NCBI GenBank assembly: GCA_949959185.1
Contig: CATLIX010000016.1
Coordinates: forward strand, 1-58,283
Direction: 5' to 3'
Length of the DNA: 58,283 nucleotides
DNA from: an uncultured Eubacterium sp.
GTDB taxonomy: Bacteria; Bacillota; Clostridia; Lachnospirales; Lachnospiraceae
Part shown: one piece after another, positions 6,799-36,708 of the stretch
Position numbering within the stretch: the stretch's first letter is position 1
Layout of the letters: each line of letters begins with the position of its first letter
The notes under the pieces: model-generated
The model's input: only the letters and a program-made list of their open reading frames with translations
What the model was told of the DNA's origin: nothing
Database searches by the model: none
Made by a program: the position numbers and the translations under genes

Positions 6799-6831
6799 AC
6801 ATAAAAACCACATGCATAATAAAACACAATC

Positions 6832-6985
6832 TTCTTCTCCCATCCAGACTGTACTGTCGGTTTTGGATTCTCACCAAATCATGCCCTGCGGCTCACGGAC
6901 TTGCCCTCTGAGGGGTATCACCGTCGGTCGGGAATTCTTTCCGGAATTATCTGTAAACCTTCTGAAAGTCACCCTGCCCTGAAGA
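6832..6985 (-). promoter_or_regulatory. FMN riboswitch (RFN element)
   Basis: The minus strand carries the RFN consensus blocks in order: GGGCAGGGTGA, AATTCCCGACCGACGGT, GCAAGTCCGTGAGC, GATTTGGTGAGAATCCAAAA, CCGACAGTACAGTCTGGATG and GGGAGAAGA. This aptamer binds FMN. It sits between a consensus promoter (7008-7036) and a terminator (6769-6798), upstream of all five rib genes. Confidence 0.97.
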
Positions 6986-7007
6986 ACTTTATTTAATTTA
7001 CGGTCTT

Positions 7008-15920: not shown

Positions 15921-16000
15921 ATAAACACCTCTCTTTCACTCCGTTTTTGTAAACCGCTGCGCGGTACATAACTTTTTCGTACTCAGGAGCCCTCCTGGCT

Positions 16001-16110
16001 GCCTTCAGGTCTCTTCCCAACTGCCTTCAGGTCTCCTCCCAACTGCCTTCAGGTCTCCTCCCAACTGCCTTCAGGTCTCCTCCCAACTTCGTTGGGTCCC
16101 TCCTCAAGGC
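16001..16110 (-). repeat. Tandem 22-bp array with closing arm (purine-rich element, expanded copy)
   Basis: Four 22-bp units (16001-16022, 16023-16044, 16045-16066, 16067-16088) follow one another without spacers; the first differs by one base. They are closed by a related 22-base arm at 16089-16110. On the minus strand each unit reads AGTTGGGAGGAGACCTGAAG plus GC, and the closing arm starts GCCTTGAGGAGGGACCC. Arm and adjacent unit form the same 44-nt two-stem element as at 34828-34871. The array lies in the 5' leader of the SprA-like gene. Confidence 0.85.
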
Positions 16111-16112
16111 AT

Positions 16113-16141
16113 ATTATACCATACTCTTTACTTTTTGACAA
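16113..16141 (-). promoter_or_regulatory. Promoter of the SprA-like/PepSY/LRR operon
   Basis: TTGTCA, a 17-base spacer and TATAAT on the minus strand. Its -35 hexamer overlaps the -35 of the opposite promoter (16135-16163). The predicted transcript enters the tandem array directly and has a leader of roughly 185 bases. Confidence 0.8.
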
Positions 16142-22554: not shown

Positions 22555-23850
22555 CTACCGTACCGGTTTTCCGCACTCAGAACAGAACTTTCCGCTGTTT
22601 ACCGCTCCGCACTGGCAGCTCCATGTGCCAGGCTGTTCTGCCTTGGGCGCTCCGCACTCGGAGCAGAATTTTCCCTGGTTCACATGGCCGCATTTGCAGG
22701 TCCATTCTTCCGGCTTTTTCGGCTGAGGCTTTCCGCACTCGGAGCAGAACTTTCCGCTGTTTACCGCTCCGCACTCACAGCTCCAGCCAGCTTTATTTTG
22801 GGCAGGCTGTGACTGAAACTGCTGTCCGTTCCGGCTCTTTTGCATGTTCTGAGCATTCTGCATCTGCATTTGCTGCATATTGGCTGCGGAAGCCGCCCCC
22901 ATGGCGTTTCCTCCGGCCTGCATACCAACGCCCATTCCCATAAATCCGGCCATGGCTCCGTTGGCATTCGAACCTGCCGCTTCCAGTCCACGGGCCATAT
23001 GCCCCTGCAGATATCCTTCCCGTACCGTGGGATCGCCCAGCATGGCTCCTTCGTTTCGCATATTAATCAGTTCTGTGGATTTTTCATCATAGGAAACACT
23101 GGCAATTCCCACTGCCTGAACTTCCATTCCGCGCATCCGGTTCCAGTCTTCATCCAGGGTATCTGCCATATATTTTCCCAGTTCCCGTCCTTTGGAGGCT
23201 ACATGGGAAATACGGATTCCGTCGGCTGACATCTGATTGATGGCAGACTGCATGGCTTCCAGAAATTCTGAAAGGTACTGCTCGTTGATATCTTCAATTT
23301 CCACCTGCTCCTCATTTTTGGGAATTGCTTCCCCGTAAAATCGTATGGGGTCTGTGATTTTAATGGAATAAGTCCCATGGGCCCGCAGAAACAGCTCCGC
23401 ATTGTAAAAATTATCAAAATAATTAATAGGATTTCTGGTGCCGAATTTTATCCCTTTGATTTCCTGCAGATTAATATAAAATACCTTCTGTACGGTGGAC
23501 GTCTGTCCGCCGAATTTTACCCGTTGAAAAGATTCCTTCACCGTATCCTTTAACTGACCGTTAAACAGGGAAGGCAGCGACGAATCGTCTACCTTATAGT
23601 AACCTGGTTCCGCTGTATAATCTACGATTTTCCCTCCGTCCACCAGCATCATAAACTGATTGTCATATACATGGATTACAGATCCGTTACTTACCGTATC
23701 ATCGGTTCCTTTTACATTTTCGCCCTTCCTGGTTCTGACGCCTCTGGTAAATACCGTTCGGTCTCCCATGTCTCCCGGTTCATATACTTCCAGCCACTGG
23801 TCTGCCAGTCCTCCGGACACTGACTGCACTGCCGCTCTGATAATTCCCAT
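22555..23850 (-). CDS. YdjI-like SPFH protein with three zinc ribbons
   Basis: A 431-aa protein. Residues 1-300 form an SPFH-type domain (LEVYEPGDMGDRTVFTRG, FYNAELFLRAHGTYSIKI, GMEVQAVGIASVSYDE). It is followed by a Gly/Ala/Met/Gln-rich linker and three near-identical zinc ribbons of the form W-C-C-G-VN-GKFCSECG (about 355-431). The first and third ribbons are encoded by almost identical DNA of about 60 bp. In B. subtilis YdjI links PspA and YdjGH to the membrane (established for that species); no pspA is visible here. No clear promoter lies upstream, so read-through from prfB is possible. Confidence 0.85.
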   Translation of the reverse strand: MGIIRAAVQSVSGGLADQWLEVYEPGDMGDRTVFTRGVRTRKGENVKGTDDTVSNGSVIHVYDNQFMMLVDGGKIVDYTAEPGYYKVDDSSLPSLFNGQLKDTVKESFQRVKFGGQTSTVQKVFYINLQEIKGIKFGTRNPINYFDNFYNAELFLRAHGTYSIKITDPIRFYGEAIPKNEEQVEIEDINEQYLSEFLEAMQSAINQMSADGIRISHVASKGRELGKYMADTLDEDWNRMRGMEVQAVGIASVSYDEKSTELINMRNEGAMLGDPTVREGYLQGHMARGLEAAGSNANGAMAGFMGMGVGMQAGGNAMGAASAANMQQMQMQNAQNMQKSRNGQQFQSQPAQNKAGWSCECGAVNSGKFCSECGKPQPKKPEEWTCKCGHVNQGKFCSECGAPKAEQPGTWSCQCGAVNSGKFCSECGKPVR

Positions 23851-34827: not shown

Positions 34828-34871
34828 ACCATCAGGTCTCCTCCCGGCAGCGCCGGGTTCCTCCTCATGGC
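34828..34871 (-). repeat. 44-nt purine-rich two-stem element, single copy
   Basis: On the minus strand it runs GCCATGAGGAGGAACCC, GGCGCTGCC, GGGAGGAGACCTGATGG plus T. The central stem pairs CCCGGC with GCCGGG and the outer stem GCCATGAGG with CCTGATGGT. It starts 11 bases after the glmS stop. It matches the closing arm plus last unit at 16067-16110 except at stem positions that change in pairs. Confidence 0.75.
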
Positions 34872-34881
34872 AAACATCAAA

Positions 34882-36708
34882 TCACTCTACAGTGACAGAT
34901 TTTGCCAGATTCCTGGGCTTATCCACATCGCAGCCCTTGCCTACTGCAACGTAATAGCTGAAAAGCTGCAGGGGAATAATTGCCAGAGAATTGGTAAAAT
35001 ACCGGTTGGTCTGGGGAATGTAAATGACATAATCGGCTGCTTTCTCAATGTCTCGGTTGCCCGCATTGGTTACTGCAAGGACAAAAGCGCCCCGGCTGCT
35101 CAGTTCCACAATATTGCTGATGGTCTTTTTGTACAGGTCTTCCTGAGTCACCACAGCGGCCACCAGCGTCCCTTCCTCAATCAGAGAAATGGTGCCATGC
35201 TTTAATTCGCCCGCCGCATAGGCTTCCGAGTGAATATAGGAAATTTCCTTTAATTTCAGGGAACCTTCCAGCGAAATGGCGTAATCAATGCCCCGGCCCA
35301 CAAAGAACACATCTTTCGCCGCAATATAGCGATTAGCAAAATGCTGTATTTTTTCTTTGTTGCTCAGAAGCATTTCGATTTGCTCCGGCAGTTTCTGCAA
35401 ATCCCTCCGAAATCCTGCCACTTCATTTTCTGTAATTTCTCCGCGCACCTGGGCAAATTTTATGGCCAGCAGGTACTCTGCAATCAGCTGGGCGCTGTAA
35501 GCCTTTGTAGTTGCCACCGCAATCTCCGGCCCTGCCCAGGTATACATCACCCGATCGGCTTCCCGTGCAATGGAACTTCCCACCACATTGACAATTCCCA
35601 GTGTCTTGACGCCGCGTGTTTTTGCTTCCCGCAGTGCGGCCAGAGAATCTGCTGTTTCTCCGGACTGACTGATAATAATCACAAGATCTTCCGAATCCAG
35701 AATGGGATTGCGATAACGGAACTCGGAAGCCAGATCCACTTCCACGGGAATTCTGGCCAGGCCTTCAAAAATATATTTGGCGGTAACGCCGGTATGGTAC
35801 GCGGAACCGCAGGCAACGATATGGATTCTGCGGACAGAGCAGATTTCCTCGTCGCTCATACCCAGTTCCTCAATCACAATCGCACCGTCTTTTATTCTGG
35901 GGTTCAGGGTATCTCTTACGGTCTGGGGCTGCTCGTACATTTCCTTTAACATAAAATGCTCATAGCCGCCTTTTTCCGCCGCATTGATATCCCAGTCTAT
36001 GGTAGTGGATTCTTTCTGAATTTCCTCACCGTCCACATTGTAAAAGTCAATACTCTCTCCTGTTAAAACCGCGATTTCTTCATTCTGTATAAAATAAACA
36101 TTTCTGGTGTATTTCAGTACGGCAGGAACGTCGGACGCAATCAGATTTCCGTCCTTTCCATGGCCCACAATAAGAGGGCTGTCTTTCCGTACTGCATATA
36201 TTTTATCCGGATGCTCCTTAAAAATAATTCCCAGCGCATAGGAACCTTCCACCCGATGCATAACCTTGGTGATGGCTTCCACCGGATCTCCTTTATAATA
36301 ACGATCAAGAAGATGGGCCACAACCTCCGTATCCGTCTCGGACAGAAACTGATAACCCTTCTGCTCCAGCCGCTTTCGCAGCTTCAGATAATTCTCTATG
36401 ATTCCATTGTGCACCACCGCAATGGTCTCTGTCTGATTATAATGAGGGTGCGCATTGTCCTGGGAAGGAGCCCCGTGGGTAGCCCAGCGTGTATGCCCGA
36501 TTCCCGACGTTCCCGGCATGGCAGCGCCGTCATGGGTCAGCTCACTGAGCACTTTCAGACGCCCCACCGCTTTCCTGACCTGAATGTTTTCTCCGTCGTA
36601 CACTGCAATTCCCGCCGAATCATATCCTCTGTATTCCAGTTTTGACAAACCGTCCAGTAAAACAGGCGCCGCCTGAGATTCTCCGATATACCCTACAATT
36701 CCACACAT
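34882..36708 (-). CDS. glmS: Glutamine-fructose-6-phosphate aminotransferase
   Basis: Makes glucosamine 6-phosphate for peptidoglycan and other amino sugars. The 608-aa protein begins MCGIVGYIG with the Cys2 glutaminase nucleophile and contains GIGHTRWATHG. Two SIS isomerase domains follow (ACGSAYHTGV, SQSGETADSLAALREAK, VGRGIDYAISLEGSLKLKEI), ending in the family tail KPRNLAKSVTVE. AGGAGG precedes the start. The LCP gene ends 14 bases upstream, so there is no room for a glmS ribozyme; regulation must differ from that of Bacillus. Confidence 0.97.
   Translation of the reverse strand: MCGIVGYIGESQAAPVLLDGLSKLEYRGYDSAGIAVYDGENIQVRKAVGRLKVLSELTHDGAAMPGTSGIGHTRWATHGAPSQDNAHPHYNQTETIAVVHNGIIENYLKLRKRLEQKGYQFLSETDTEVVAHLLDRYYKGDPVEAITKVMHRVEGSYALGIIFKEHPDKIYAVRKDSPLIVGHGKDGNLIASDVPAVLKYTRNVYFIQNEEIAVLTGESIDFYNVDGEEIQKESTTIDWDINAAEKGGYEHFMLKEMYEQPQTVRDTLNPRIKDGAIVIEELGMSDEEICSVRRIHIVACGSAYHTGVTAKYIFEGLARIPVEVDLASEFRYRNPILDSEDLVIIISQSGETADSLAALREAKTRGVKTLGIVNVVGSSIAREADRVMYTWAGPEIAVATTKAYSAQLIAEYLLAIKFAQVRGEITENEVAGFRRDLQKLPEQIEMLLSNKEKIQHFANRYIAAKDVFFVGRGIDYAISLEGSLKLKEISYIHSEAYAAGELKHGTISLIEEGTLVAAVVTQEDLYKKTISNIVELSSRGAFVLAVTNAGNRDIEKAADYVIYIPQTNRYFTNSLAIIPLQLFSYYVAVGKGCDVDKPRNLAKSVTVE

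Follow-up and report, generated by a model that had tools for sequence, protein, structure and literature searches.

A dispersed family of covarying hairpins in Lachnospiraceae that may combine mobility with a role in mRNA leaders

The window analyzed here, a stretch of 58,283 nucleotides from an uncultured Eubacterium sp. of the Lachnospiraceae (contig CATLIX010000016.1, assembly GCA_949959185.1), carries two copies of a 44-nt hairpin on its minus strand. The first one (16067..16110), which is the top covariance-model match in the genome (69.9 bits), has the sequence GCCTT-G-AGG-AGGGA-CCCAAC-GAA-GTTGGG-AGGAGA-CCT-G-AAGGC, i.e., an outer stem GCCTT/AAGGC (5 bp), a G.G position, AGG/CCT, a purine internal loop AGGGA/AGGAGA, a stem CCCAAC/GTTGGG and a GAA loop. 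Its outer stem is preceded, with a gap of 2 nt, by a −10 box TATAAT (16113..16118) that follows a TGG, a register that recurs across copies, and a −35-like TTGTCA (16136..16141) was recognized by eye 17 nt ahead of this box. The hairpin is followed by four more 3′ arms on the same strand: the second (16045..16066) and the third (16023..16044) are the same unit (AGTTGGGAGGAGACCTGAAGGC), the fourth (16001..16022) shows a single change (GGGAAGAG) and the fifth (15979..16000), uncounted in the initial annotation and identified by eye by comparison with another assembly of the species, is degenerate (AGCCAGGAGGGCTCCTGAGTAC). In the assembly containing the window, this tandem array has a period of 22, 4.1 copies and 98% matches. 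The downstream ORF (P0001; 15360..15920, minus strand; 186 aa), in whose leader this array is located, has its start codon 58 nt past the last arm. The "SprA-like" label previously given to this ORF is not supported, neither Pfam nor NCBIfam giving a match to the product at 1e-5.

The second hairpin is single (34828..34871) and is located 10 nt past the stop codon of a 608-aa ORF (34882..36708, minus strand; labeled glmS in the initial annotation), ahead of the next same-strand ORF. Its sequence is GCCAT-G-AGG-AGGAA-CCCGGC-GCT-GCCGGG-AGGAGA-CCT-G-ATGGT. Both 44-mers were found where they had been reported and align without gaps. They share the predicted RNA fold (((((.(((.....((((((...))))))......))).))))), with folding energies of −19.0 (z −3.9) and −21.7 kcal/mol (z −4.0) for the first and the second copy, respectively. 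Their stem differences had been described as paired, which is true for AAC/GTT versus GGC/GCC and for T-A versus A-T but not for the outermost G-C, which is G-T in the second copy. Two other features were observed in the window: an FMN riboswitch (6828-6990, minus strand), which is above its gathering score, and an 81-nt tandem repeat of 2.7 copies (22570-22785) within a 431-aa ORF (22555-23850).

The genome containing the window (G000; 3.4 Mb in 114 contigs) harbors seven occurrences of the strict full pattern compared to none for the reversed control, and the pattern is therefore not attributable to chance. A search with a covariance model, as had been suggested, retrieved further copies both in this genome (36 matches of model R1 at E ≤ 0.1) and in related ones. 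The model gave 35 matches at E ≤ 0.001 in a second assembly of the same species (G061; five contigs), and R1 matches were found in 17 of the 61 genomes searched (own genome included), all 17 belonging to the genus of the window (28 genomes searched). A search of the whole family Lachnospiraceae with stricter filters (E ≤ 1e-6) found R1 matches in 21 of 397 genomes, own genome included, and in 19 of 334 genera. A scan of one genome per species returned 104 stretches; among the 80 listed, 79 have titles of Clostridia, mostly Lachnospiraceae, Roseburia or Eubacterium, and one comes from a metagenome bin titled Bacteroides sp. The presence of the hairpin is patchy, even inside the genus of the window. 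A phage origin was rejected, the strict pattern having no match among viral contigs. In Rfam 15, the only match of the window at gathering scores is the FMN riboswitch, and nine element loci searched at E ≤ 10 gave seven matches, all far under their gathering scores; this rules out a known RNA family and agrees with the initial annotation, which had recognized none. A literature search, whose coverage was mostly outside subscription journals, retrieved no description of this hairpin. These searches point to small structured hairpins that form a dispersed family in Lachnospiraceae, absent from Rfam 15 and from the literature searched.

The two window copies had suggested a selected structure with compensatory changes, and the larger set supports this suggestion. 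Neither the outer stem nor the variable inner pairs were part of the search pattern. Among 136 unique instances (of 142), pairs one to four of the outer stem pair at 99% and the fifth at 92%, compared to 56, 77, 40 and 82% for pairs two to five in shuffles, the first pair (T-A) hardly varying. The next position pairs at only 37.5%, the outer stem being exactly 5 bp long, and the base directly 5′ of the stem is a T in at least 120 of the 136 instances. Alignment A1, made of exact pattern matches with a 9-nt middle (66 distinct of the 142 instances) whose fixed columns are invariant by construction, has 98.3% of its cells paired and 142 double-change cells versus 42.6 in shuffles. Alignment A2 comprises 48 matches fitted to the covariance model (45 of them distinct; they come from 32 chosen loci, of which 26 belong to other genera) and is the fairer test; it has 98.2% of its cells paired and 92 double-change cells versus 24.1 in shuffles. 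Five of its rows equal A1 rows, and without them 523 of 531 cells pair, with 81 double changes. Shuffles ignore the relatedness of the rows; controls with slid partners, which keep this relatedness, also fall far below the real pairing in both alignments. Between the covarying stems, the purine internal loop is nearly fixed in several genera (AGGRR opposite AGGAGN or AGGATN), and every column of the A7-G12 tract of A2 deviates in at most two of the 48 rows. A2 reveals a second subfamily, in which A-T replaces G.G and the 3′ internal loop reads AGGATN. The terminal loop is C-GNA-G in 43 of 66 aligned loops; such loops are very stable in DNA. Taken as a whole, the covariation indicates that both stems are maintained by base pairing.

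Paired changes were also found in place, by comparison of orthologous promoters. The NAPRTase gene is present in all 29 genomes of the genus that were searched, and both hairpin arms were found upstream of it only in G000, G061 and G024, the other 26 of the 29, checked from the gene start, being devoid of them; G001 has a lone weak 5′-arm-like match. Among the 29 upstream views inspected by eye, L228 and L230 are misplaced and L226 is truncated at a contig end; many of the regions devoid of hairpin keep a recognizable −10 box. The NAPRTase hairpin is therefore probably a gain at an older promoter. Its outer stem is GCCTT/AAGGC in G000 and GGCAT/ATGCC in G024, which corresponds to two inverted pairs, the inner CGCCTCTGGCG being shared and the purine loop being partly degenerate in G024. 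At the promoter of a beta-CASP gene, the outer stem is ATCAT/ATGAT in five genomes (G000, G061, G015, G022 and G025) and ACCAT/ATGGT, with a long loop, in G020. Only TTTATCATGA remains in G024, the G023 copy looks degenerate, and the remaining upstream views, some of which are without the usual upstream gene, show no hairpin by eye. G024 thus appears to have lost this hairpin and yet kept the promoter, which suggests that the hairpin is dispensable there. A third promoter shows GCCCT/AGGGC versus ATCAT/ATGAT. According to these alignments, the hairpin has changed by pairs in place at two orthologous promoters, those of the NAPRTase and beta-CASP genes.

The position of the hairpin relative to transcription is not random either. 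A hexamer with at least five of six matches to TATAAT ends exactly 2 nt ahead of the stem in 29 of 135 unique instances, compared to a mean of 1.30 and a maximum of 4 for the 44 other gaps, and 22 of these 29 boxes have a TGn extension. Among 49 clusters with a TATAAT-like box at 1–4 nt, which cover many stem types and include G000 and some orthologous loci, this box is at 2 nt in 42. Relative to genes, 86 of 98 clusters were counted (12 overlapping ORF calls were left out; the ORF caller was crude and species were pooled): 69 clusters have their next gene in sense within 400 nt, nine have it in antisense, and eight have no gene that near. The context is tandem-sense for 51 of these clusters, tandem-antisense for five, divergent for 19, convergent for five and undetermined for six. 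No −10 box is found beside 52 of the 86 clusters, intercistronic ones among them. None of the outcomes against which the initial annotation had set its own proposal (no further copies, uncompensated variation, random placement) was observed. This sense bias is confounded with replication, since 21 of the 24 clusters on the largest contig of G061 (dnaA at 3.51 Mb) are on the leading strand as judged by their position from dnaA, with the terminus placed at the skew change near 1.2 Mb and three weaker matches without loci (one leading and two lagging) left out. Two of the three lagging-strand exceptions, those of the NAPRTase and DinB-type genes, are promoter copies that follow their gene.

The 2-nt gap and the 5-nt half-stem place the G of GAGG 8 nt past the −10 box, and a position 8 nt after a −10 box is a plausible transcription start. 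If transcription starts at this G, the outer stem of the promoter copies would be a DNA feature; its 5′ half nevertheless still covaries in these copies and, by eye, pairs about as well as elsewhere. The resemblance of the GGAGGAG tracts to a ribosome-binding sequence, also proposed initially, is real in its letters (AGGAGG), whereas the corresponding function is putative. At three loci (L154, L160 and L153), the next gene seems, by eye, to take its ribosome-binding sequence from the hairpin copy.

Comparison of the two assemblies of the species sheds light on the tandem arms. At the window locus, G061 and G000 are identical over the compared stretch, apart from 96 inserted columns in G061 that correspond to four extra 5′ arms of 24 nt each. 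The G061 array therefore has five arms on each side, with a degenerate last 3′ arm. Another array has 4:4 arms in G061 and 5:2 in G000. In the 4:4 array, a matched outermost pair GCACT/AGTGC surrounds three inner GCCTT/AAGGC pairs, which shows that the arms nest. Both G061 arrays are predicted to fold, as RNA, into one rod (−103.1 and −91.2 kcal/mol, z −6.0 and −6.9). Unbalanced arrays also exist in G061 (one 3:3 with a degenerate arm and one 3:4), and 18 composites carrying an entire hairpin within another were listed, 12 of them of 110–114 nt, some overlapping one another. The initial annotation had proposed that a single 5′ arm could pair with any of four 3′ arms; this alternative pairing is ruled out by the five:five nested rod of G061. 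The four-fold 3′ arm itself is real in the G000 assembly, but its 1:4 arm ratio is specific to this draft or strain; the four-fold arm would correspond to one side of such a nested rod, or else to a rod that has collapsed or been altered. The arm number thus differs between two assemblies of the same species: G061 has more units than G000 at the window locus and at L151, L153 and L170, and G000 carries, compared to G061, an extra 5′ unit with its own substitution at L152. This extra unit makes part of the difference genuine; the low number of 5′ arms in G000 may be either genuine or due to short-read collapse, this assembly being split into 114 contigs.

In another genome, G209, the covariance model gave twelve matches of equal score, at least four of which are within 150 nt of a contig end. 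There, a fold-back repeat carries the hairpin between its two arms, and the motif of these arms has 163 occurrences (≤3 mismatches) compared to three for the reversed control. Among the 30 fold-back copies with loci, ten have the hairpin at their tip, 19 have a short empty tip and one has a different tip. When three empty copies were folded with RNA parameters, the entry point fell within the apical loop or a single base away from it. Junctions are nearly identical among the filled copies (one of which is cut by a contig end), and these copies may stem from a single entry followed by amplification of the filled repeat. The arms of this fold-back repeat (loci L303-L332) also appear to vary in pairs. 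Other repeats were observed around hairpin copies. At L165, L166, L167 and L174 in G000, the hairpin lies inside a larger repeat, apparently another fold-back host, the ends of which resemble CAGTTCAGCC and GGCTGAACTG; a comparison of L167 and L256 reveals a repeat near the hairpin, with 28 inserted columns between genomes of the same species. At L005, L040 and L143, the hairpin is surrounded by a second palindromic repeat that resembles GGTATAATATCGANAGATATTATACC and continues, at two of these loci, with GCCCGAATGGGC; this repeat is also near promoters. Several copies from several assemblies (for example L060, L066, L067 and L078) have a tail of about 24 nt past the hairpin, ending like CCAAAGAAGTAAA, that may mark a longer form of the element.

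We also searched for the gene responsible for a possible mobility. G000, which is 98% complete, has no match to PF01797 (Y1-family tyrosine transposase), a control search being positive in five of 14 known genomes, and this rules out a RAYT-type mover in G000. A scan for a transposase recurring beside the copies, which covered one representative of each of the ten protein clusters present at most loci, found none. These representatives are a histidine kinase, an ABC transporter, a response regulator, a sigma factor, and proteins of beta-CASP, AraC, SpoIIGA, MCP, diacylglycerol kinase and FAD/NAD oxidoreductase types. No target duplication is visible at the compared promoters or fold-back tips, among which there was no clean recent empty promoter site.

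Overall, we lean towards a mobile hairpin family that doubles as an mRNA-leader or intercistronic element. At the DNA level, the hairpin would behave like a small non-autonomous mobile element, probably moved by transposition, because it is dispersed, patchy, tandem-duplicated, nested in its own copies and present at a fold-back tip. At the RNA level, transcripts would carry it as a leader or intercistronic hairpin. As it begins 2 nt past the −10 box, the message would start in the hairpin or at its edge, and additional nested units would lengthen the rod. Its likeliest effect on message life or translation would be that the hairpin and its AGGAGG tracts shield the 5′ end of the message and/or provide a docking site for ribosomes. 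Leader stabilization by 5′-end occlusion or strong Shine-Dalgarno sequences would thus be the likeliest mechanism by inference, possible rather than probable.

The same data can be read differently. The hairpin could be a purely selfish REP-like DNA palindrome serving as the recognition structure of a single-strand DNA transposase, its paired changes resulting from template switching in hairpins or from selection for mobility and its effects on messages being accidental. We regard this as unlikely, although it accounts for the patchy presence, the nested and tandem copies, the fold-back-tip copies with empty counterparts, an orientation that mostly tracks replication and the frequent C-GNA-G loops, which would be stable in DNA. 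The exact −10 register and the sense or leader bias (51 versus five tandem clusters; 19 divergent versus five convergent) are unexpected for a neutral parasite, no Y1 transposase was found in G000, and the mismatched purine loop persists, although template switching would be expected to erase it as well. Furthermore, according to the available part of the source, the BOX, RUP and SPRITE repeats of pneumococcus show the opposite bias, being over-represented between convergent genes, with only 61–63% on the leading strand (PMC3049150). A related idea, to which we give a somewhat lower chance still, is that the hairpin inserts into DNA exposed as single strand, i.e., the loop of a palindrome (its own or that of a fold-back repeat) and the melted promoter just past the −10 box; it is retained because a start near GAGG would make the outer stem a DNA feature. 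If true, each entry at a promoter would cap the message with a structure, each insertion into the hairpin's own loop would extend the nested rod by one unit, and transcription itself would pick the landing site and the orientation.

A dedicated regulatory leader RNA, in which a protein or a small molecule would bind the purine internal loop and control a set of genes, would explain why this loop is near-constant between covarying stems in several genera, and it fits the leader position of the copies. However, the 12 downstream products assigned to a family (of 17 scanned) are unrelated and suggest no obvious common pathway (HD domain, cytidylate kinase-like, beta-galactosidase, MCP, HI0933-like, DinB-type polymerase, beta-CASP nuclease, M3 and M18 peptidases, SCIFF peptide, HPr and NAPRTase). 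This disfavors a pathway-specific riboswitch and, together with the patchiness even within a genus and the copies at fold-back tips, makes regulation of this kind improbable. It is very doubtful that the hairpin is a promoter DNA element acting in the non-template strand of the open promoter or as a cruciform and altering initiation: the strict 2-nt gap does bring the outer stem's 5′ half into the discriminator, where it would be untranscribed from a typical start and yet, by eye, pairs, but 52 of the 86 clusters are without an adjacent −10 box. Integron attC sites and CsrA sites were set aside on background knowledge alone.

The preferred reading, a mobile family doubling as a leader or intercistronic element, concerns a covarying, widespread but patchy element of gut bacteria that has no match in Rfam 15. 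The −10 register, the nested growth and the differences within a species make testable both the spread of tiny hairpins with no apparent enzyme and their retention for an effect on the 5′ end of messages.

Among known systems, the REP/REPIN sequences moved by RAYT (TnpA-REP) are also short, dispersed and strand-specific imperfect palindromes with an irregular stem; the available text on E. coli REP indicates that a mismatched bulge is required for TnpA-REP action (PMC8266576). The hairpin is likewise a dispersed, multi-copy imperfect palindrome (36 in G000 and 35 in G061). In contrast, its aligned copies end without the GTAG or CGTC tags described for REPs in the accessible part of PMC3733652, G000 has no PF01797 gene, and the hairpin displays a gene-sense bias, a promoter register and self-nesting. 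BOX elements of Streptococcus pneumoniae resemble it by their modularity, their variable number of internal units and their predicted folding in transcripts, and some of them form 5′ extensions of operons, as far as the consulted sections of PMC3049150 describe them. Compared by description only, they differ since the units of the hairpin are the arms of one hairpin, on both sides, and since it is biased towards gene starts. Bacterial MITEs and fold-back repeats are also small and dispersed and fold upon transcription, according to the portion available of PMC10969869, and the hairpin rides on a fold-back tip in G209. Unlike MITEs, the bare 44-nt unit shows neither a terminal inverted repeat other than its own stem nor a visible target duplication.

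The stabilizing leaders of Bacillus (the 5′ stem-loop of aprE and the STAB-SD of cryIIIA) share with the hairpin a 5′-proximal stem-loop and strong Shine-Dalgarno-like tracts, and 5′-end occlusion and strong Shine-Dalgarno sequences are named as stabilizing features in the accessible text of a review (PMC3997798). Likened to the hairpin by sequence features alone, they are leaders of single genes, whereas the hairpin forms a dispersed, covarying family. The double-hairpin elements of fungal mitochondria nest in one another, and we know of no promoter register for them. They are described as small mobile hairpins, like the present element, but they inhabit organelle DNA and have a different sequence and architecture.
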